This document shows positions 7,916 through 64,000 of a stretch of DNA of 64,000 bases, piece after piece (positions within the stretch are counted from its first letter, which is position 1; every line of letters begins with the position of its first letter). Both the position numbers and the translations under genes were made by a program. This DNA comes from Membranipora membranacea (Eukaryota; Bryozoa; Gymnolaemata; Cheilostomatida; Membraniporidae), in NCBI GenBank assembly GCA_914767715.1, contig OU612071.1, positions 27,465,681 through 27,529,680 of the forward strand, read 5' to 3'. The notes under the pieces are model-generated. The model was not told the DNA's origin. It worked only from the letters and a program-made list of their open reading frames with translations, and ran no database searches.

Positions 7916-9370
7916 CCAGATCAAGGCATGTGATGCTGCCTCCATATACAGTGCAACCACCAAGTTTCTGTCAGAAAAACTCAAGGTAGATATGAGCTCT
8001 AAAGTTGGTGGTTTGGGGTCAGATGGTGCAGCTGTGATGATTGGACACCATAATAGAGTTGCCGCCAAATTCAGAGCTGAGGTAAAGAAATGCTGCTATA
8101 ATTATTTTGACTTAGTATTTTCAAGACTCTTAGTTTGTATTATCTAGATTACTGAACTGTTTTCAATGCATGGCTGCAAGTTTGATAGCAAATTATTCTT
8201 TGTTATCCAGAATCTGAAGGTCCTAAATGTTCACTGTGTTGCACATCGACATACCCTGACAATACTATTTACTGCTGCAGTAGTTGTCCAATATAACAAG
8301 ATGCATCCAAGTATTCTTTCAGGTTTATCTGCCCTACTTAGACAAAGTGGCCGGTCATCTGCGCCACAGGTTTCCAGAGAAAGACGTAAAAGTTTTAGAG
8401 GCAGCTAAGATTTTCGGTGGGAGTGGATACCAGGATAGTGGTAGCTATTGAAAGGTATGAATAACTATAAGCTTCTTATTTACGTTCTCCGCATTTCAAT
8501 AATGAATATCATAGAGTAAAACAAGCGTGATGAGTATCGCTGTGCAAACACAAAGGCAATAGTACTTAATTGTAAACATCGTCCCATTTAGTTAATTAGG
8601 TGTATTTTGGATGAACAAAATCTTCTTTGACTAACTATGACTTATTTTTCTCCTCAGGTGTTGGTTGACCAATTTGATAAGGACAAGACAGTACTGTATG
8701 CTAAGTGGGAGGGGTGCTTAGGCTGTATCATATCGGTCATGACAGCCAGTATCAAAACATAATTGAAATAATTTCAATCTTCATGGTTGTTGACGTAACC
8801 ACCGCAGATTGTGAGAGAGGGTTTTCGGTGCTTAAACTCACAAAAACAGCATTCAGAAACTGTTTAATCAAAGAAAATCTAAACGATAGCCTGTCAATCT
8901 TTGCTCCTGATGAATTCCCAGCCAATGTAGGGAGTACCCGTGGCTCACCACAAGCAAGGAAGGCAAGCTACATTGTAGCATATGTAAGGAGGTGAGCGCC
9001 CTAAATATTGTTCAAGCAAAGGGGGTTTACATACGTAGAAAATTGATGACGGGTGTTATATCTGGTAGTGGTGATGATATATCAAAGCAGAAGGCATCTT
9101 TTCATAAATTTTACAACCCCAAGAAGGATGCAACGCATATCAAGGCTAAAGAGATTCTGAATGAGGTTTAGAAAGAACAGTTGAAAGAGGGTCTAAAGGA
9201 GCAGAAATTTGAGACCACTGAGAGACATAATTGGTGTGCATATGTTGTGGCTGCTTCATTGTCTTACTGCTTTGTCTTCATGATGATTAAGTTGCCAAAT
9301 CCAAAGAAACGACCCACGATGAAAAGAGATCACCCAAGGACTCGTTACAACCAAAGCTCCAGATCCTAAT
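7916..9370 (+). pseudogene. ZNF862-like hAT transposase relic with introns
   Basis: The catalytic start is clear: VGGLGSDGAAVMIGHHNRVA is the hAT D-G-A-x-V-M motif. An intron with GAG|gtaaag at about 8081 and tatccag| at about 8210 joins in frame to NLKVLNVHCVAHRHTL, the HCVAHR motif. A second apparent exon after ctttcag near 8323 gives YLPYLDKVAGHLRHRF and LEAAKIF. The C-terminal dimerisation segment at 8780-8930 reads TADCERGFSVLKLTKTAFRN, then NLNDSL. Lysine-rich sequence continues to 9370. Stops (TGA near 8450) and a missing middle part show decay or internal deletion. A domesticated, partly assembled gene is possible but less likely. Confidence 0.65.
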
Positions 9371-23393: not shown

Positions 23394-23465
23394 CTATATC
23401 ATAATTTGAGATACCAATACACGGCCCATATCTTTTAATTCTTTCAATCTACTTGATTGTTCTAG

Positions 23466-23891
23466 GAAATACCTAGGGATGGAACGAGGTGAAAAGGCTA
23501 GGTATAATGTCGTTGATGTTCCCCAGCAGAAAGATTCAGATGATTGTGGTGTTCACACTATTCATCATGCATGGCATATCAGCCCATATCTTTTAATTCT
23601 TTCAATCTACTTGAATGTTCTAGGAAATACCTAGGGATGGAACGAGGTGAAAAGGCAAGGTATAATGTCGTTGATGTTCCCCAGCAGAAAGATTCAGATG
23701 ATTGTGGTGTTCACACTATTCATCATGCATGGCGTATCAGCCCATATCTTTTAATTCTTTCAATCTACTTGATTGTTCTAGGAAATACCTAGGGATGGAA
23801 CGTGGTGAAAAGGCTAGGTATAATGTCGTTGATGTTCCCCAGCAGAAAGATTCAGATGATTGTGGTGTTCACACTATTCATCACGCATGGC
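23466..23891 (+). CDS. Triplicated Ulp1/SENP-type protease exon array
   Basis: Three near-identical 110-nt exons lie at 23466-23575, 23624-23733 and 23782-23891, separated by 48-nt introns. The unit is 158 bp. Each follows an acceptor gttctag and encodes KYLGMERGEKARYNVVDVPQ, then QKDSDDCGVHTIHHAW. The Q-x5-D-C-G box carries the oxyanion Gln and catalytic Cys of the C48 family of SUMO/NEDD8 proteases (Ulp1, SENP), whose usual form is PQQ-x-N-x-x-DCGVF. The exons enter in phase 2 and leave in phase 1. Copy 2 has donor gtatca and copy 3 gtaaat, but copy 1 has atatca and so has lost its donor. The catalytic His/Asp exons were not found. Confidence 0.65.
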
Positions 23892-23967
23892 GTAAATGGG
23901 AATAAATATGGCAAAAACTGATGGTAGTCAGTGGTGGATACTGTCTCTATTCATAAATTTGCCGAGG

Positions 23968-27610: not shown

Positions 27611-28088
27611 GTACCAATCAAACCAACGTAACTAAAATCACAATCCGGTTCTGCTTGAAAACTCATTTTCTAAAAAACACCCTTGAGAATAGTTTTGCAG
27701 TTTGTACTGAGTTTGCATTGCTTGCATTGCATTTGTGTATTGCTTTAAGGTACCGGGGTGTGCCCAGTGTCTCTACAATGAAGAGAGAGTTCATTGGTCT
27801 CTAGGCAACTTGTTCTTGTGTGATATTCTGTTAGCTGGGGGGGGGGGGTGGATAATCCAAATCCAACTCAGAGGAATTGAATATCAATTTGTGTTATAAG
27901 GGTAAGGAGAACTAGGGATTCGTTTCTGTTCTCTACCTTGTATCCTTACGTTGTTGATATCGGTATTGTTGTCAACATTTGCTTCCTTGCATCTCTAACT
28001 TGTGTCCATTGCAATACTCTGTTTACCGCGGGTAGACATTAAATCATATTTTTGATTTATTATTGCATTGTTAGTCAGTGATCATAGC

Positions 28089-29338
28089 ATGGCAGCTGGT
28101 AGTATTTGTACTGGCTTTCCCATGTTAGACATTGAGGAAAATGACATTTACAGGTCTTGGAAGAAGTGGAGTGCTGAGTTTAAGCTCGCGCTGAGTCCCA
28201 AGAAGCTTGAGATGGGGTTTGATAACATCACTATCACTAGTGATGATGAACCCCCTGTAGTTACAACTTACTAGGAAAGAGGCTAGATTCTGTGCGCAAT
28301 CTAGGCTCTGGACGTTTTTAAGATGTATAGGTCAAGAGAGTAGGGAAGCAGTGTCCACTCTAGGCCTTGATCTTAGTAGTGATAAATTGATGTATGAAGA
28401 AGTGTGGGCTATATTAAAAGACCACTATGAGCGTGACAAATCTGAATACGTCAAAGTAGACAAATTTGTGTCCTGTCGTCAAGTATCTGCGGAGTCAGAT
28501 AGAGATTATCTATTGAGATGTGAGAGACTTGGTAGGCAGTGTGATTTTTCAGCTGGAGATGTCCGGCAAATATTCACATTGTCGATCGCAGTTAGAGGTT
28601 TACGCGATAATGTGTTAACGCGTGAGTTGATGGCCAATGAAAGGCTTGATTGGGCTCCTTTGAATAAAACATTGAGAGCCCGTACTGGTGCTCAGGAGTC
28701 TTTAAGTGCCTTAGGTGATGGTGTATACCCTGTTACGGTTTCTAATAGTGCTAGTAAGAGTGATACTAGTACTAGTCGTGCAGCAGGAGTCCAGTCTGCC
28801 TCTGCTTCTACTCAACCTGAGTCTAGTTCTGCCAAAGCTCCTGTGTCTCCAAAGGGGGAGGCCGTGAGTGAGGTTAGATATGGATCTCAAAGTGAGTATA
28901 GTAGAGATAGACAGCGTGAGTCTAGTAGAGATCGTTGACACGATAGTAGAGATCGTAGATACGATAGCCGTGATCGACAAGATTCCAGAGGTCGGCGCGA
29001 CCGCAGGGATTCAAGTCTTTATCGTCGTGATCGTCGTGGTGACAGAGACAGAGGTCGAAGTGACGATAGTCAAGATCGTGGATCTCGCAGTGATCATAAG
29101 TCTGACAGGGACAGACGTGATAGTTATGATTGAAGTAGTCGGTTCAGTTGTGACAGAGGTCATGATAGGTCAGACAAGAGGGACAGTCGTCACAGACGTC
29201 TGTCATGACAGTCGTGACAGCTGTCATGACAGTCGTGGTGATAGTCGTGATCGTTCTGATCGTGGTAAAAGTCGCAGCGGTCGGGATGACAGCCGCGACA
29301 GGAAAGAATCAGGCCGCTCCTCGGAACACCCTGCTTGA
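28089..29338 (+). pseudogene. LTR-retrotransposon gag with Arg/Ser/Asp-rich tail
   Basis: The frame starts MAAGSICTGFPMLDIEENDI and shifts near 28250-28262. It then continues through a capsid-like block: MYEEVWAILKDHYERDKSEY, FVSCRQVSAESDRDYLLRCE, IFTLSIAVRGLRDN. Metaviral gag proteins share the F-x-x-R-x-Q...Y-x-x-x-L-x-x-(L/Q)-x-x-x-C-x-F...(I/V)-R-G order. From about 28880 the protein becomes an SRDR/RD repeat domain, likely nucleic-acid-binding. TGA codons at 28936-28938 and 29131-29133 interrupt it, each one C-to-T step from CGA Arg. A further frame change near 29200 follows. Base composition is clearly GC-richer than the flanks, fitting an inserted element. Confidence 0.65.
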
Positions 29339-29555
29339 TTTAGCTGCTGTAACTCCCGCTTCTAGTAATGCTAGCACTGATCCGGTGAATGTGGTGTCTG
29401 GAAGACAGTCTAGGTCGTTGCTACGGCCTGGATTCGAAGCACGGCGTAGGTTACACGCTTCAGCCAGACCTGAGAGGCCGGCTGCACCAATAATACGGTC
29501 GCCTCATGCACGTAGTGTCAAACCCACTACCAAACCTGACTTTGAGTATCAGTAA
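29205..29555 (+). pseudogene. Gag C-terminal segment in a shifted frame
   Basis: The useful part runs from about 29300 and reads NTLLDLAAVTPASSNASTDP, then Arg/Pro-rich sequence to a TAA near 29555. It follows the end of the SRDR domain in an overlapping frame and shares the GC-rich composition. I regard it as the continuation of the same polyprotein after a frame change. No domain was recognised. Confidence 0.4.
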
Positions 29556-29623
29556 CACTTGGTTTTCTTTATTTTCAGATCACAACCTTCGCATCTGAAT
29601 CTAGAGAATAAACCTGTGAATAG

Positions 29624-30589
29624 ATGACGCAGAAGCGTAAGAAGAAGCACGGTGATGGAGGTGAGCAACCCCGTAGGTGGCGGTGCGAGGTATGTTGGTC
29701 AACGGATCACCTGACTATTCGGTGTGAGAAGCTGATATGCTACGAGTGCAATGAGCAGGGCCGCCAGGCTGCTCTATGTCCTAATTCTGTGACGAGCGTG
29801 GTCACATACGGACCTAGTGCCCACAGAGGGTTAGCCGCATGTCGATCAGAGATTGTGCTGGAACCTCTGGTTCTGGCGGTGGAGTGCCTACCAGCCCCAG
29901 CAGGGAGCTTGCTGGCTCAGAGTCATCTGGGTCGGTTGAGCCACCTGCGTCTCTACGACGCTCAGTTGCTTGCGGTTGACGAGAGACTTTCATCTCTCTG
30001 TCAGGAGTTTGAGAGAGCCCAGGCTAGTCTTGTGGCTGAAAAAAGTGTCACTTACGACAGTCTCCAAGGCCTAGTCTCTGGTCTGAGTCAGTGGTATGCC
30101 AATACTACATCTGCGGCGGTTACCGTTGGTACCTCCACTGCTACTGAGGTCCAGGCGTACGCTGTGAGTCCGGCTAATAACACCTTAGCTGTGGCCACAA
30201 CATTTACGGCGAGATCTGGAGTGAGTGCTAGGCCTGTCAGCACTGCCTCAGTGTCGGACTCCGTGCCGGCGGCTCAGATGGCTGCATCACCAGCTGGTGG
30301 TGCTGCTGAAGTGAGTGTGGAGGCAGAGCCGATGCGTGTCAGCAAGGCAGAAGAGGTCGACGAGTCTGCTGTTCATTGTGAACATCAGCAGTCGCCTCTT
30401 GCTGCTGAGGAAGGGGATCAGACGCTCGCTTTAGATCGTGAGTCTGTATCTCTGGAGTTAAGTGAGGTCGACGAGGACAAAGTGCTTGACTTTAAGTCGC
30501 TGATATTCGATGAGGCGTCGGAGGAGCAGTCCCGAGACATAGTCATAAATGGTTCAAAAATCTTATGGCATAACAAACCCTATTTTTGA
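29624..30589 (+). CDS. Retroelement zinc-knuckle protein, 321 aa
   Basis: This is the longest frame in the window. After a Lys-rich start, residues 21-34 form a canonical CCHC zinc knuckle (C21, C24, H29, C34 in CEVCWSTDHLTIRC). Residues 39-52 form a second one with C39, C42 and C52, but Arg47 stands where His is expected (CGC instead of CAC). The middle (about 90-160) is Leu-rich and helical. The rest is Ala/Ser/Val/Glu-rich with an acidic end. The last dozen residues fall in AT-rich sequence and probably lie beyond the element. It sits 70 bases after the gag frames and shares their composition, so it is probably the nucleocapsid-type part of the same element. No protease, RT or integrase follows. 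Confidence 0.6.
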   Translation: MTQKRKKKHGDGGEQPRRWRCEVCWSTDHLTIRCEKLICYECNEQGRQAALCPNSVTSVVTYGPSAHRGLAACRSEIVLEPLVLAVECLPAPAGSLLAQSHLGRLSHLRLYDAQLLAVDERLSSLCQEFERAQASLVAEKSVTYDSLQGLVSGLSQWYANTTSAAVTVGTSTATEVQAYAVSPANNTLAVATTFTARSGVSARPVSTASVSDSVPAAQMAASPAGGAAEVSVEAEPMRVSKAEEVDESAVHCEHQQSPLAAEEGDQTLALDRESVSLELSEVDEDKVLDFKSLIFDEASEEQSRDIVINGSKILWHNKPYF

Positions 30590-54159: not shown

Positions 54160-54165
54160 TTTATT
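54160..54165 (-). terminator. Poly(A) signal of the left peptide gene
   Basis: AATAAA on the minus strand, about 60 bases after the stop codon at 54225-54227, in the expected place. Confidence 0.6.
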
Positions 54166-54224: not shown

Positions 54225-56572
54225 CTAACGTCTCTTTCCCTTGAAGGTATAACGCAGGTGCACTCCTCCATCACGAATTCCGATGTGCCCGTTATGTTGC
54301 CCGTTGTTAGATTCGAAACCGATACCACGGTTGCCTATGTACCAGTTATCTCCAAGTGTGATTCTCCTGTTAACACAAAATAATGTGATAAACAATATTT
54401 TTACATTCAGGTGTGCGATAAATAAAAAGTCATACACGACATAAAATAAATACATTCAAATGTAGCAGGGTGATTTAAAAAACTTCGAAGGAGATTTAAC
54501 ATCTACACATTTTCTTATACCATTGCTTAGCTATTAATCAGACTAAGGGAACCCAGAGAACCCTGTGTGCACCAAATCCGCCATAAAATAAAGACATGAA
54601 AAATTCTTTTTTTGCTGGAAAACCAAGTGGTATTTCCAGGGTTTATCTCCCTTGCCGAAAGTGGAGACAGAAGAGAAGAGGAAGTATGGGCAACAAATAA
54701 AAAGAGCTATACTACCTTATGATACTTTCTAAGCTTACTACCTCTACTGCATATTTTGAGCTTATGCTTGAGGGGGAACTTTGAAACCAATACTCAATCT
54801 TTCATCTTGAGAACCTGCGAGGTTGTGTATCTTTTTTGGGACCTTTCAAATGATATATGGTGTCACTGAAGTTTTAATTTCTGGTTATAGTGAAGAAAAA
54901 CCGGATTTTATTTATTAAATAGCATAAAAAAATATTGTGTAACCCAAAACATTGATAAATTATTATATAATGTATTACTTACGTTGGATATGGTGCCTGG
55001 GTAACAAGGTCCCTAAAAAAAGAAAGTAAAAGATGTAAACAATATTATTTGAATTCAGCCTGATGTGACATCAAAAGACAAGCATGCCAAAAAGGGGGTA
55101 CTTTCCCTCACAGCAGCAAGTTGATTCAAATAAAGTGCAGACAAACTGGACATGAAGGCTACCCAAGAACCACTGCATGTTACAGTCATGCATTTGCTCA
55201 TGATGAAGATATGTCAGATTCGCATGGTTAAAAATTCACTGCAATTCTTGTTATGAATTATTGTTGGTGGATGAAATGCCTCTCGTAAGGGAAGGTAATC
55301 TCTCATTCTCTGCATTATGATGTCAATGTCGCCGAGAAGTGATTTCTTCTTGTTTTGCACTTTCTGGAGACTGTGACTTCATAATGCACTTTCTTCACCA
55401 TCAATAATTCATGCCAAGTAGAGCATTGATTTTTTACCATGCAAATTTTATACAACTTTATCATAATACGTAACTGCCTGAAAATAACATGCAGCGGTCT
55501 TTGGGTAGGCTTTCACTTGCTATATGTATATATATGTATTATATACTGCGTTGCACAAAAAATGTGATGCATAAAGTCTGTTCTATTAGATTACTTGACT
55601 GGACATCTGAAAAATAAATTGTTATTGGAAAACTTACCGAAAATTAAATTGTTCCATTGTACGTGGAGTCCTATAAAAAGAAATGAAATGTGTGAACAAA
55701 ACACAATGTGAGGAACCTTTCTTAATACAATGTGACGTGACATCAAAAGACAATCATGCCACAAAGGGGAACTTTTCACTGCAGCAGCGAGTTGAATCAA
55801 TTAATTTCAAGGGTAGGCGAACTGGACTCACTTGCTATATATATTTACTGTGTTGCAAAACATGAGATGATTGAATTATTATCTGATTGATCACTTACTC
55901 GGACTCTGAACTCAGACTATCTAGGAATTGGTTCTCCCTATAAAAAGAAGTTAAACTGTTTTAACAAGAAATAATGTGATGAATAATATTTTTGAATTTA
56001 GTTTGACATGAAATCAAAAACATATGCACTCATAAATGGGATCATTCCACTGCAGCAGCGAGTTGATTAAAAAAAAAGATTCACAATGCTGGCAAACTGG
56101 ACTTGACCTGTTATGCAGCTTAATATATACTTTGCCACACCAAAGATCTGATGAATAAATCATTAACTACTATATTATACTTACAAGTAAAAAAAATCCT
56201 GAGGGCTTCTAAAAAAGAAATAAAGTGTGGTTAATATTACCCCGATGATCAGAGCACACACACATATTCATCAAAAATTCTGATAATAATTCAGGCTGAA
56301 TCTATACAAGTTAATTTCCCTAATTACTGACTACCTAACTTTCAATCAACAAGAATGAGTGTATACTGTCAACCATCTCTCATCACATTATCTAAGCAGT
56401 TGAGAATGTAAGTACACATATATCGATCTGTGTATGCAGCAAAATAGGATCATAAATTAATCAATTGCACTTACACGTTGAAGGAATGTCTCTTAGTTCT
56501 CTTCAGAGGGTGAGCAGAGCTCATAACAAGTAGAGCAAAGAAAGTGATACAGAATATTCTAAGCATCTCCAT
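54225..56572 (-). CDS. Secreted prepropeptide gene, six exons, 121 aa
   Basis: Exons on the minus strand: 56572-56475 (ATG), 56208-56185, 55937-55899, 55670-55638, 55012-54983, 54366-54225 (TAG). Lengths are 98, 24, 39, 33, 30 and 142 nt. Every intron has GTAAGT-type or good donors (gtaagt in all five), acceptors like tttctttttatag, and phase 2, so all four microexons can be skipped without a frame change. Total CDS is 366 nt. Residues 1-20 are a signal peptide (MEMLRIFCITFFALLVMSSA), followed by the dibasic LKRTKR. Microexon residues are SPQDFFYL-like and acidic. The last exon is Gly-rich (GDNWYIGNRGIGFE) and ends GKRR, which could be an amidation plus trimming signal. No family was recognised. 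It may be a hormone-like, antimicrobial or structural secreted peptide. Confidence 0.75.
54960..56230 (-). repeat. Tandem exon-intron modules in the peptide gene
   Basis: Each microexon lies in a repeated module: acceptor block ctataaaaagaa, then an intron with aatgtga..aatatttttgaat, gacatcaaaagacaagcatgcc or a variant, gcagcagcgagttgatt and gcaaactgga. The modules around 55.0, 55.7 and 55.95 kb align well, and traces of the same intron start occur near 54.38 kb. The gene therefore grew by duplicating [microexon + intron] units. Confidence 0.75.
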
Positions 56573-56670
56573 AATGATGAGAGTATTGAAACTTTCTAGA
56601 CAAGTCACTCTGTACAATGATGTGTCTCTCTGTAAGACGTTGTGTGGCCCGTTCTGAGGTGAGCTGCTGC

Positions 56671-56681
56671 CTTTTATATAA
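56671..56681 (-). promoter_or_regulatory. TATA box of the left peptide gene
   Basis: TATATAAAAGGCAGCAG on the minus strand, about 100 bases before the ATG. The right paralog has TATAAAAGGCAGCAG in the same place, and the 5' UTRs (ttgtacagagtgac near the middle) are also alike. Confidence 0.75.
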
Positions 56682-56695
56682 AAAGTACAAGGAAA

Positions 56696-56775
56696 TCCAG
56701 ATAAAAATGTGGTCTGTCAAGATAATGATGTCAGCTTCATTTGACCTCAACAACACAAACTGCTGCCAAAATTCT
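56696..56775 (-). promoter_or_regulatory. Upstream module, copy 1
   Basis: It lies 15 bases upstream of the TATA box. It has a core with gtctgtcaagataatgatgt and cagcttcatttgacctcaac, then aacacaaactgctgccaaaatt. The same module occurs at 56925-57005, 57192-57270 and, inverted, 61138-61213. TGACCT is a nuclear-receptor half-site sequence, but binding here is only a guess. Confidence 0.7.
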
Positions 56776-56924
56776 ATACAGTAATGACGATGTGATTAGG
56801 AATTGCTATATTTCATTAGGCTGCTCCATCTGTAAACATCCAGATTTCCTTTTAAATTGTCAAGGTCATTTCCTTGATTCCTGATACCAAGTAAACAACA
56901 ATCATGTGATTAATTGGCAGCAGT

Positions 56925-57005
56925 CTGATAACAATGTATCCGCAAACAAATTAATGACAGCTTCACACGGCCTCAAAAACACAACTTGCTGCCAAAATTG
57001 TAATC
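56925..57005 (-). promoter_or_regulatory. Upstream module, copy 2
   Basis: Contains ctgataacaatg, atgacagcttcacacggcct, then caaaaacacaacttgctgcc and aaaatt. It has no TATA box next to it, so it is either an extra enhancer-like copy or a relic of a lost gene. Confidence 0.65.
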
Positions 57006-57191
57006 AGTGATGCCTATTTTTGCAAGCTTTCACTTTATAGCCTGATTATATGTCATGTTGATTCAGCATTTAACTGCACTGTTATTTGTACATATAATTG
57101 GTGCCTTGTTATCCTCAAATACAGGTTAGAGGAGATAGGTCCCTGAAAATATTTGTTGACAGGCTCTAAAAAATTCATGGAAATATACTAC

Positions 57192-57270
57192 TCTGATAAC
57201 AATGAGGTCTGTCAAGATAATTATGACAGCTTCATATGACCTAAACAACACAAGCTGCTGCCCAAATTAT
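57192..57270 (-). promoter_or_regulatory. Upstream module, copy 3
   Basis: Contains ctgataacaatgaggtctgt, caagataattatgacagctt and atgacctaaacaacacaagc, then tgctgcccaaatt. No TATA box follows at the expected distance. Confidence 0.65.
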
Positions 57271-58049
57271 TTTCTGCCATGTCAGTTTTTTGCAGAAGTT
57301 CACATTCCATAGCCTCCTGTAATATCACTATCGATATATTTATTTAGCCATTACGTATTGGAGATGCAATCTGGTGGAAATATAGCAGCAGTTATCACAA
57401 CTGCTGTACATCACAGGGAGTGCCGAGGAGATGTTACTCTAAGGATACTTCTCAAAATATTATGATTCTGCCACTGTAATGGTAGTGTGAGGGGATGCCA
57501 AACAAGCTTGGTGATGACATATGAGCACGATGTCAACTGGGGATGGCCTCACTAGGAAATTAAGTAATACTTTGCAGTTTGCGTAGATTTTAGTCATAGC
57601 GTTGAATGTTGCTAAATCTCAGATCATGGGACAATTGGCCTTGAAGAGAGCGTGGTTGATCTTTCAACATATTTCATCGCAAAGCAAACTGTAATTCTGG
57701 TAATTTGGTTGAATGTCAGACTGCAATCAATAATTGAAAGAACCCACAGATATGTAAGCATTGCTGCGTTCTCTAATAATAAAAGATCCACAAAATCTAA
57801 TGCTGCTGGCACTTAAACAAAATGTAAAAAAATCACTCTAAAGACTTCCCGATGACCAGCATGTTATAATTTGTCAGTCACTTATGATAAAGTTATGTGA
57901 GACTTGTATGGTAAGAAATTTCAATGCTCTTCTTGGCATGAATTAAGCAAAAAACTTTTTACCATGCTAATCTGACATAACTTCATATCATACGTAGCTG
58001 CCTGACTATAGTATGTACTGGTCTTTGGGTAGTTTTAAGCAGTTTTTTA

Positions 58050-60791: not shown

Positions 60792-61137
60792 TGTGACTGA
60801 ATCGTGACATTATTTGTAAAAGTGTTCTTAGAGTAAGATTTCCACGATGCTTTCTCGATTGTAGAGCAATTGCAGCAACTGCTGCAGTAATACGACTTTG
60901 ATTGATGGCTTAATAGCACCATCAGACTGCCCCTATGCTCCATAATGCACTCCTATAATAAAAGTTCCTGGAAGTTATTGCCATGATATATCTTTAGGCA
61001 GCTTTGTTATGGCCCTTTTGCTGTTATTTAGAGTTAAACAGCATCACCAAGAAAACTGGACACTGATAATCATCATTATTTATACAAGACAGGCTATATA
61101 CTGTGAAATCTTACAATAACAGACATCACTGATTAAA

Positions 61138-61213
61138 TTTGTGGCAGTAAGTAGTGTTGTTGAGGTCACATGCAGCTGTCATCGTTATTTTGCCAGTCCA
61201 CAGTGTTATCAGA
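61138..61213 (+). promoter_or_regulatory. Upstream module, copy 4 (right gene)
   Basis: Reverse complement of the copies at 56.7-57.3 kb: tttgtggcagtaagtagtgt, tgttgaggtcacatgcagct, gtcatcgttattttgcc. It ends 18 bases before the TATA box, matching the spacing in the left gene. Confidence 0.7.
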
Positions 61214-61231
61214 ACTTCCTTGTATTTTTAG

Positions 61232-61239
61232 TATAAAAG
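61232..61239 (+). promoter_or_regulatory. TATA box of the right peptide gene
   Basis: TATAAAAG followed by gcagcag, 104 bases before the ATG at 61336. The region in between is alike in both genes (cattgtacagagtgac, here duplicated). Confidence 0.75.
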
Positions 61240-61335
61240 GCAGCAGTTCACTCAGTACAGGCCACACAACATTGTACAGAGTGACACAGCATTGTACAGA
61301 GTGACTCCTCTTGAAAGGTTAATAGTCTAATCATC

Positions 61336-61989
61336 ATGGAGATAATTAGAATAATTCTATATCACTTTCTTTGCTTTACTTGTTATTAGCGCTGCCCAAT
61401 CTCTGCAGAGATCTAAGCGGTGAGTAAACCTGAATCTATAAATTAAGCAATATTTGGATCCTCCTCTCATATCCTCATTGAATGATAAATGATTAATCAA
61501 TCATTGATCTGATTAATGCTAATGTGAGTCTTTATTATTGGATTTTCTATTTATCTTTAGAAGCTCTAACATGATTGTGCCATAATCAGTGGAATGAAAT
61601 TGAGCCTAGTTTTGTTGTTGTCTTTTTTAGGACATTGGATTTGAGTCACTTTCCTGTGTAAGTAGCAATACATAACATAATAGCCATTTATTAGATTTCT
61701 ACCAATTGAAATTTGAAGTTAACACTAAAAGTTTGATCCAGTCTACCTGCAAATGATTTTTTTTGTGGCAATGCCCTGAAGCAGCGAAATGTTTCCCCTT
61801 ATATATTGTGATTCAAATAAAACCTACATCATTTTGCTTTGGAAATATGTAGTTCATCACAGTATTTTAAATTTCATGTTTGCAGTTGGTCTGCAGACTG
61901 GAGAAGGACACATATATACGATCGGCTCGGGCGAGATAGGTCTACCCCTTACTTGGGCGGAAAGAAGCGATAGATTCATATTTTCATGA
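61336..61989 (+). pseudogene. Right paralog of the secreted prepropeptide
   Basis: Exon 1 (61336-61419) aligns with exon 1 of the left gene through the signal peptide, but one extra base after AGAATA shifts the frame. In the shifted frame it continues FYITFFALLVISAAQSLQRS, then KR, with donor G|GTGAGT in phase 2. A 27-nt microexon (61631-61657, acceptor cttttttag, donor gtaagt) adds TLDLSHFPV. The terminal exon 61886-61989 (acceptor gtttgcag) adds GLQTGEGHIYTIGSGEIGLP, then LTWAERSDRFIFS and TGA, also phase 2. The 9-codon microexon and G-H-I-x-x-I-G terminal exon show the same architecture as the left gene. It lacks the GKRR end. A decayed extra exon may start at 61562. It is either a pseudogene or a sequencing variant. 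Confidence 0.65.
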
Positions 61990-62183: not shown

Positions 62184-62828
62184 AAACTTAACATCAGTTC
62201 CATGTGTTATTACTTATTAGTTGTAGTACATCTGGTATATGGTAATAATATTTTCTGAGTGACGTCATGATCACAATTAGAATTAGGATTCAGATTGTTT
62301 CATTACACCAGTTTTAAATGGATGACACTCATTGTTTTCAGCATCGGATGGCCTAAATTTCTAGCTTACTAATCAGATTATGCTACGTTGGCTCCCCAAC
62401 CTTATCATTGGTTTCTTCTCGGTAATCTTCTAGCTTGAAATAAAATTGTGTTCCATAAGGTGAAGGTGTTCCATTAAGTAAATGTGAGCATAATTTCTAT
62501 TGGAATCTTGGTTCACAATGTCCTCTATCATAATAATCGTAATAAACAGAAGATAGCACAGTGAGTATCATATTTCTAAAATCAATCCAATTATCTCTTT
62601 GTGTCTGTGGACTAAGGAGAATTAAGTTCATCACTTCAGCTGTATCCACAAAACCAAAAACCACAAAACCACAAAACAGTTTTTGTGTTTATGATAACCA
62701 CATTGAAAATGATTAATACACATGGCCATGGATATCTGACTTAAATATTTAAAAGCATGCCTCAATTTTATGTTGTAGGAATAAGTTACAAATTATCAGC
62801 AAGATACTATGGTTTCTTCTCAGTTTAC

Positions 62829-63273
62829 CAACCTGTGATTTTCTGTTTGACTGGCAGACACTGCATGTAAGCTGGTATTCTTGTATGGGAGATGAAAAAG
62901 TGTGAAATAGGAATGAAGATGAAGTTGAATATTTCTCCATATCTAGATTCATCTGCTCTAGGTAGGGTTCCACATAATAATAATAATAATCCAGCACCAG
63001 TGGAAGGAGTTTTATCTAAAACAAAGAGACTAATATGACATTCGCAACTTTCTTGTACCATATACAGCATAGTCATGCAGCGTTTCAGCTGGATATGATT
63101 ATGACATGTTTTAATGTGAATGCATAGTACCTGCTCATCCACGGAACTGCGTGCATTCTGATGGGATTTGTAATCCGGATCATATGGTAGACAAGCAAGA
63201 TGAGAACCACGACTTCTTACATGACCCCATCTGCTATTACCCGGTCCTTGATCGTCTCTGCTACGCCAAAATC
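62829..63273 (-). CDS. Two exons of an unknown secreted-type protein
   Basis: Minus-strand exon 63273-63131 (acceptor attgttacag, donor gtacta) encodes GFWRSRDDQGPGNSRWGHVR, then SRGSHLACLPYDPDYKSHQN and VDEQ. It joins in phase 0 to exon 63015-62833 (or 62829), whose acceptor is ttgttttag and which encodes IKLLPLVLDYYYYYVEPYLE, then a Ser/Phe-rich part and LTCSVCQSNRKSQ. W-G...S-x-G-x-H-L-x-C-L-P-x-D-P-x-Y resembles a domain in uncharacterised extracellular proteins of sponges and cnidarians (W-G-x...G-x-x-Y-L-C-L-P-x-x-P), by pattern only. The C-x-x-C at the end may be a start of a metal or disulfide unit. Other exons lie outside. Confidence 0.5.
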
Positions 63274-63279
63274 CTGTAA

Positions 63280-64000
63280 CAATCAAAATCATTAAATTCA
63301 ACTATCCCACTGATTTGGAGAGCCCTTTGTCTTGATTATTGTTATGGCATGTTCTGTTTGACATGAACTTGCTGGGAATCTCAAGCAGACACTTGATTGC
63401 AACTATGTGAGCTTCAACCTGTTTATAGTTGTCAGATTAAGAAATAACAGTATCCATTAGCAAAGAGGTATGGCTTCTGAACTGGGCAAAGTGTTCCGGG
63501 CCTGAAAATCTGTAACAAAGGTTCACAAGGCTTCATCTCCTAGTATTTAAAACATCATTGCATATCCTACAAGAACCAGAAATTTGCTCTCCATATTATG
63601 AAGGTCACCCTGGTTCTGTCTAGGGGATCATCTGATCTCGTAATGAGTTGCAGGATACAATCTTGACACAAAACTTTGTGTGGTGGGAATGTGCTGCTGC
63701 TATGAACCAACTTCTAATTTCCTTGTTTTTGCCACATACCATCGATATTTCATTTTATAACAGAACCATTCGAGAACAAGGTCAGAAACAAAATGTGCAC
63801 ATCAGATTGTTAGTTTGTATATTTCTGCTTTTAAAACGACCTAAGAGAAAAATAAAATTTACTTAACAACCTACAAACTACCGCTGTAGACCAGTTGGGC
63901 TTCTGCGGGACATATATATTTACCCCATCTGTGTATGTAGCTCCACCTGAATCTGGCTATTAATGAGGTTGAAGTGTGTTGTTTCTCAGACAAGACTGGA
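63280..64000. other. No gene seen at right edge
   Basis: The frame 63648-63866 (+) ends in a hydrophobic and basic stretch (HIRLLVCIFLLLKRPKRK) but has no recognised family. The 62829-63273 gene may extend upstream through here. Confidence 0.3.

Follow-up and report, generated by a model that had tools for sequence, protein, structure and literature searches.

The coding sequence at 54225–56572 of the window, the window being the whole 64-kb stretch of DNA that was analysed, is divided into six exons, four of them only 24–39 nt long. The question raised by this locus, referred to below as gene A, is whether such microexons serve to make many secreted peptides from one gene or record the way in which the gene was built.

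Structure of Gene A

Gene A lies on the minus strand (56572–54225) and comprises exons of 98, 24, 39, 33, 30 and 142 nt, each located once only in an exon search of the window, on that strand. The donor gtaagt was observed at all five introns and phase 2 at all five splice junctions, and the joined CDS of 366 nt encodes 121 aa ending in GKRR. Exon mapping reproduced the exon number, the four short lengths, the donors, the phase and the CDS length as a sequence-only reading had proposed them, and the signal-peptide-like start, basic processing site and GKRR tail of the proposed prepropeptide are all present; the minus strand, the tandem acceptor of exon 2 and the paralogue in the window had gone unmentioned. 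Sequence reading placed the core promoter, TATATAAAAGGCAGCAG, at 56664–56680 (minus strand), and repeat comparison identified a promoter-proximal repeat, present in three copies that have diverged, at 56700–57315 (minus strand), upstream of the gene; its unit also occurs upstream of paralogue B. According to the exon model and the leader alignment, exon 1 (56475–56572) encodes a hydrophobic signal-peptide-like start, ..SSAHPLKRTKR with its RxKR furin-type site, and HSFNV, and ends at a gtaagt donor in phase 2; the product begins with MEMLRIFCITFFALLVMSSAHPLKRTKR, followed by the predicted cut site and HSFN..GKRR, and TATAAAAGGCAGCA is common to all 15 aligned leaders. The microexons, delimited by the exon model and a microexon scan and all on the minus strand, are exon 2 (56185–56208, 24 nt, SPQDFFYL), where a second, tandem NAGNAG acceptor 3 nt further on gives an alternative of 21 nt; exon 3 (55899–55937, 39 nt, ENQFLDSLSSESE), found acidic when isoform charges were computed; exon 4 (55638–55670, 33 nt, TPRTMEQFNFR); and exon 5 (54983–55012, 30 nt, DLVTQAPYPT), weakly similar in cross-family comparison to the single microexons of the relatives L020 and L024. 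The last exon (54225–54366, minus strand, 142 nt including the stop) carries, by exon model, domain search and alignment, the glycine-rich domain RITLGDNWYIGNRGIGFESNNG..YTFK, then GKRR and the stop, and AATAAA was read in the 3′UTR at 54160–54165 (minus strand). Repeat analysis revealed an imperfect-palindrome (MITE-like) insertion at 55155–55512, which lengthened intron 4 and left the splice sites untouched.

Both strands of the window were scanned for microexons, taken as stretches of 12–81 nt between a polypyrimidine-AG and GTAAGT. Nine candidates were obtained: five symmetric and open in gene A (its four microexons, exon 2 being counted twice), three that are not symmetric, and one at 61631–61657, which belongs to paralogue B and is the only symmetric open microexon outside gene A on either strand. 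In first-order Markov resamples of the window, the expectation for candidates both symmetric and open was 0.375 per strand of 64 kb, and four of them within 1.3 kb occurred in 0 of 200 resamples; the microexon layout of gene A exceeds chance. Microexons account for 126 of the 366 nt of its CDS (34%), and its donors and acceptors look strong, most acceptors having strong polypyrimidine tracts.

Elsewhere in the window, 23424–23894 contains three copies of a 158-nt unit, which are 97% alike, with a Ulp1/Peptidase_C48-like reading frame. Transposon remains were observed at 8705–8995 and 28056–30589, in the form of a hAT dimerisation domain and of long reading frames that, by eye, are gag-like and include a zinc knuckle. 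Open frames on the minus strand at 62749–63301 presumably recall the non-collagen part of short-chain collagen C4-like proteins, a resemblance for which Pfam gave no support.

A Head-to-Head Paralogue in the Window

The stretch 61124–61417 on the plus strand repeats the promoter, 5′UTR and exon 1 of gene A with 82% identity over 296 aligned positions, and introduces a broken paralogue, B (61336–61973), which lies head-to-head with gene A and is collinear with it. Its parts on the plus strand are a core promoter, TATAAAAGGCAGCAG (61232–61246, from sequence reading and comparison with gene A); exon 1 (61336–61419), with RSKR at its end; a microexon of 27 nt with a gtaagt donor (61631–61657); and a last exon ending in GGKKR and the stop (61886–61973). 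Read in phase 2, they give ..SLQRSKR TLDLSHFPV WSADWRRTHIYDRLGRDRSTPYLGGKKR. The reading frame of exon 1 is, however, interrupted a short way past the ATG, and in the assembly B accordingly has the look of a pseudogene or else of a faulty allele. Identity between A and B amounts to 85.5% in the promoter, 81.5% in the 5′UTR and 84.5% in exon 1, and the last intron and 3′UTR scored above 1000 of 1000 mononucleotide shuffles. The coding parts of the two last exons showed no similarity beyond chance in a shuffle test (p 0.40), their best local match being the GK[KR]R end only.

Distribution of the Family across the Genome

The genome (339 Mb in 18 contigs, the window being on contig C7) was searched with the conserved promoter/5′UTR/signal-peptide exon or with the glycine-rich C-terminal domain, and at least 22 related loci were detected, 15 by their leaders and seven by the C-terminal domain. 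The leader DNA of gene A gave 21 matches. Fifteen of these are leaders of genes, A and B among them, the remaining six being promoter fragments that belong to A and to other members, and the other leader loci are 73–83% identical to the leader of gene A. The commonest type of C-terminal domain gave 12 matches, two of them new (L049 and L050), and a second type gave 17 matches at E ≤ 0.1, five of them new and all on contig C3. Ten of the 22 loci are arranged in five head-to-head pairs: A/B, L030/L020, L021/L023 and two on C3 (27.461−/27.468+ and 30.481−/30.486+ Mb). In the latter two (L051–L054), L051 resembles L054 and L052 resembles L053, as if a single pair had been copied and the copy turned round. 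One member is present in six almost indistinguishable copies (L026–L029, L031 and L032), which are spread over 2.6 Mb of C7 (22.3–24.9 Mb), with gtgagt as the donor after exon 1 in five and gtgaga in one, and are probably a young expansion. Within 80 kb either side of the window the leader search detected no further leader, and only a microexon-like piece was observed, about 30 kb to the left (NSVTQRPI.., C7 27435863–27435892, minus strand); it resembles the microexons of L024 and L050, no leader or family C-terminal domain other than those of A and B was found in the 224 kb examined, and it is probably a relic. The leader tree has three of 12 inner branches well supported, with gene A unplaced.

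Intact models were obtained for 18 genes, namely A, L020–L029, L031, L032, L049 and four of the five C3 loci (L052–L055). Left out were L051, whose exon 1 apparently has a gtaatt donor; L050, which has a microexon and a last exon and no leader in about 1.2 kb upstream; and the broken B and L030. All junctions are in phase 2 in 18 of 18 models, partly by construction, as the last-exon acceptors of the relatives were picked to keep the frame. Four microexons are present in A, one in each of 11 models (L020, L021, L023–L029, L031 and L032) and none in six (L022, L049 and the four C3 models). The single microexons measure 18, 27, 30 or 39 nt and were found independently of the models by a slightly relaxed scan, which also picked up microexon-like stretches inside exon 1 of L019, L020, L022 and L024 and a longer, overlapping one in L021, all excluded from these tallies. 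Among the 12 other intact models with the leader type of gene A, the one-microexon design is observed in 11, the exception being L022. The RxKR site is present in 16 of the 18 models (RTKR in A; absent from L022 and L023) and the GKRR/GKKR end in 11 (absent from L020, L023, L049 and the four C3 models), and the precursors range from 54 to 125 aa.

Individual members show departures of their own. In L022 (C7 27172593), exon 1 runs straight into an apparent microexon end, which makes a two-exon gene, and QFRLGNNWW.. follows directly after the signal peptide without a furin site. L020 (2221–2277) and L023 (2183–2233) stop early in the last exon, at ..RW and ..EW, and encode the short proline-/aromatic-rich peptides FTNGPYYPWRTTQNPFRRW and RYTFPPFERTTEEPWEW, with apparent remains of the family C-terminal end downstream (by eye).

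C-Terminal Domain, Constraint and Proposed Role

Alignments of 13 and 11 sequences showed that the glycine-rich domain is common to the last exons of most members, with L, G, N, G, G, N, H, G and KRR invariant in the alignment of 13; it is missing from L020 and L023. Gene A carries the family domain, LGxNW..GIG..SNNG.H..GKRR, with 42% identity to L026 (E 4e-9) in a tblastn search of the 15 leader loci only. The Nei–Gojobori dN/dS of the last exon ranges from 0.04 to 0.40 in the 10 pairs without A or L021, three of which have dS above 1, and on this ground the last exons of the relatives are proteins under constraint; for exon 1 it ranges from 0.11 to 0.62 in 15 pairs. The domain of gene A gave 0.43 against L024, 0.78 against L032 and, with saturated dS, 0.39 against L021. 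It may evolve faster than the others, and gene A could be under relaxed selection or on another job.

The computed mature peptides have net charges of +10 in L024, +14 in L049, +7 in L052 and L054, +4 in L020, +3 in L022, +2 in L021 and L032, and −1 in L023. Glycine makes up 19–30% in L022, L024, L049, L052 and L054, 16% in L032, 9–10% in A and L021, and 0–3% in L020 and L023, and cysteine is absent from all ten mature peptides computed, that of gene A included. To judge from charge and composition, L024, L049, L052 and L054 have the profile of glycine-rich antimicrobial peptides. The mature peptide of gene A with all its microexons departs from it, with a net charge of −3 and 10% glycine; without exons 2–4 its charge is +1, and the 24 possible isoforms range from +3 to −4, most of the difference being carried by microexon 3. 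For the last exon of gene A taken by itself, structure prediction gave, at moderate confidence, a meander of four strands, for which no convincing relative was obtained. Searches of Pfam, NCBIfam and PDB with the family sequences and the model returned no convincing relative, the few weak matches looking like chance.

The reading that we consider likely is that gene A belongs to a family, expanded in its lineage, of glycine-rich peptides that are secreted, released by furin and in many cases amidated, and that most likely act in host defence and work like attacins and diptericins. In the pathway by which such precursors mature, furin cleavage is followed by carboxypeptidase trimming and by amidation at glycine. 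A TATA-driven exon 1 would encode the signal peptide and end in or near the furin-type RxKR site, where a furin-like protease would release the peptide. The phase-2 microexon would supply the short stretch between the cleavage site and the C-terminal domain, mostly one such exon in relatives with the leader of gene A and more in gene A itself, whose acidity would come mainly from microexon 3. The glycine-rich C-terminal exon would form the bulk of the mature peptide, and carboxypeptidase trimming and amidation at glycine would complete the C-terminus, a GKRR/GKKR end being present in most intact members with the leader of gene A.

Two other explanations bear on the same evidence. The first, that gene A is an ageing or pseudogenising off-shoot of the defence family, in which duplicated pieces of intron were exonised under relaxed selection, would agree with the dN/dS of its domain against L024 and L032, with its acidic, glycine-poor product and with the broken state of its neighbour B. 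It is nevertheless unlikely, as the frame of 121 aa is uninterrupted, none of the ten splice sites is lost, RTKR and GKRR are both preserved, and the lengths and frames of the microexons keep the CDS open. The second holds that the family consists of amidated neuropeptides or peptide hormones whose microexons vary the part beside a bioactive C-terminus, and the signal-peptide-like start, basic cleavage site and GKRR/GKKR tail are indeed prohormone-like. We regard it as quite improbable, however, in view of a mature sequence that is strongly divergent between some paralogues under a retained leader (as between the last exons of A and B), the many copies, some of them broken (B and L030), the length of the glycine-rich domain and the failure to see any repeated peptide copies.

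Origin of the Microexons

The sequences upstream of exons 3, 4 and 5 of gene A are alike, and so are the downstream sides of exons 2, 3 and 4, and exons 3 and 4 therefore have homologous flanks on both sides. The sequence comparison shows duplication of an intron unit within gene A. The microexons themselves gave no pair with similarity at p < 0.05 (0 of 6 pairs). Windows of the same lengths from the homologous intron pair (exons 3/4) were recovered in 94, 62 and 82% of cases, a power that may be overstated, this pair being among the most similar. The introns before exons 3, 4, 5 and 6 resemble the last introns of L021, L020 and B, and those before exons 3 and 6 also the last intron of L024; the last intron of L023 fell below the cut for every intron of gene A, and the intron before exon 2 had no match among the relatives' introns compared. 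The best match of the introns before exons 3, 4 and 5 is the one that precedes the L021 microexon (scores 141, 126 and 111), and that of the intron before exon 6 is the last intron of L021 (score 88). In the cross-family comparison, eight of 45 microexon pairs reached p < 0.05, about two being expected. Among them are exon 3 of gene A with the microexons of L020, L023 and L024 (p 0.022, 0.001 and 0.003) and its exon 5 with the microexons of L020 and L024 (p 0.050 and 0.044). The microexons of different genes are thus not wholly unrelated.

The simplest history suggested by these likenesses is serial tandem duplication of the last intron together with adjoining exon sequence, in which every copy would add an acceptor and a donor. 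The process was probably begun in an ancestor common to gene A and L021, since the introns of gene A are most like the intron before the L021 microexon, and would have been taken further in gene A. After duplication the short exons would have diverged past recognition and the introns would have remained alike. Tandem copies must keep the phase of the parent intron to stay in frame, and the all-phase-2 layout alone is hence no proof of selection for shuffling.

This bears on the idea that gene A is a splice-combinatorial effector which, like a schistosome micro-exon gene (MEG) or an aphid bicycle gene, would include its microexons alternatively and so confront a host or symbiont with many variants of a secreted product. 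As the sequence-only reading had anticipated, any combination of cassettes is in frame: all 24 splice combinations (the 16 subsets of the four symmetric microexons, plus the second acceptor of exon 2 where that exon is used) stay open and end in one stop each. The NAGNAG acceptor of exon 2 and the faster divergence of the exons than of their flanking introns point the same way. Against this, gtaagt at all donors and the mostly strong polypyrimidine tracts would favour constitutive inclusion, tandem duplication already accounts for the equal phase, and none of the 17 remaining intact models has more than one microexon; such an effector seems rather improbable. The combinatorial peptide family claimed from the letters is borne out as a family, by the related loci across the genome, and is not supported as a combinatorial output of this locus, given the strong-looking splice sites and the phase shared through duplication. 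It is very doubtful that gene A is a splice-programmable defence peptide in which four cassettes, multiplied as one intron was copied again and again with the exon sequence next to it, yield furin-released peptides of charge +3 to −4, and in which the acidic microexon 3 would be an inbuilt mask by which a cationic glycine-rich peptide is turned off or on.

The locus comes close to catching the birth of microexons in the act: paralogues with none, one and four microexons co-exist in one genome, and the copied intron is still recognisable around exons of gene A that can no longer be aligned to one another. As a set of candidate defence peptides, the family also includes naturally occurring members in which the glycine-rich core stands by itself (L022) or bears N-terminal extensions (L024 and A).

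Comparison with Known Systems

Titles and abstract openings in the one literature collection searched named no microexon-built glycine-rich peptide family, and a paper on Nasonia, the single match there for microexons together with antimicrobial peptides, does not use the word microexons. In the passages of the sources drawn on, attacins and diptericins are described with a signal peptide, an R-X-(R/K)-R site (attacins) and glycine-rich, cysteine-free domains, and collembolan diptericin precursors measure 108–125 aa (PMC11180110, PMC7924397, PMC10051947). The present family, with precursors of 54–125 aa, is alike in its putative pre-pro-peptide layout and, in 16 of the 18 intact models, in its R-X-(R/K)-R site; the ten mature peptides computed are free of cysteine, and some of them are glycine-rich. 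It is unlike them in the microexon segment and the GKRR tail, neither of which those passages name for attacins or diptericins (PMC11180110, PMC10051947, PMC7924397), and gene A itself differs in being acidic. Attacin was absent from the Pfam matches of the family domains in scans whose HMMER filters drop weak matches, and a whole-genome search with PF03769, the C-terminal attacin domain, gave no match, 14 control genomes being equally silent.

The mussel myticalins and CRP-I are described, in the parts of the papers cited, as multigene families that keep a conserved signal peptide, are hypervariable in the mature part, are probably amidated at the C-terminus and include pseudogenes (PMC5577615, PMC10138031). 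They share with the present family the conserved leader, the hypervariable mature part, the probable amidation and the pseudogenes, and differ in having three or four exons, no microexons being named in those parts, and in their mature sequences (PMC5577615, PMC10138031); the anionic part is C-terminal in the myticalins, as described there, and N-terminal in the mature peptide of gene A.

As regards the exon layout, short symmetric exons of 6–36 bp make up about 80% of the coding region of schistosome MEGs according to the cited passages (PMC5825161), and the products are described there as secreted, with a conserved N-terminus and a variable rest (PMC5825161, PMC10526429). Gene A is alike in its short symmetric exons, its putatively secreted product, its conserved N-terminus and its variable rest, and unlike in that microexons make up 34% of its CDS (126 of 366 nt) against the roughly 80% given for MEGs, its relatives having none or one. 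The products of aphid bicycle genes carry paired cysteine (CYC) motifs, which are absent from the cysteine-free mature peptide of gene A. In the passages cited, bicycle genes appear as putative secreted effectors whose internal exons are numerous, small and almost uniform in phase and "start with codon position 2"; their sequence evolves fast and their structure slowly, and they have about 17 exons on average and a minimum of 5 (PMC9168663). On that description, gene A shares the small same-phase internal exons and reaches the five-exon minimum with its six exons, which are few against the average of about 17; its internal exons, after phase-2 introns, start at position 3, a difference that may lie in the phase convention of that paper. 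The sequence-only reading knew no named family of such a layout, and here it was mistaken, as schistosome micro-exon genes (PMC5825161, PMC10526429) and aphid bicycle genes (PMC9168663), as described in those passages, have it. The layout is already known twice, in unrelated animals, and membership of gene A in either group is not supported by the comparison, which was made by description; no sequence kinship to either emerged from the databases searched, in which neither is represented. Gene A provides a testable case in which same-phase microexon genes, such as the MEGs and the bicycle genes, could arise independently, by duplication followed by diversification, without selection for shuffling.
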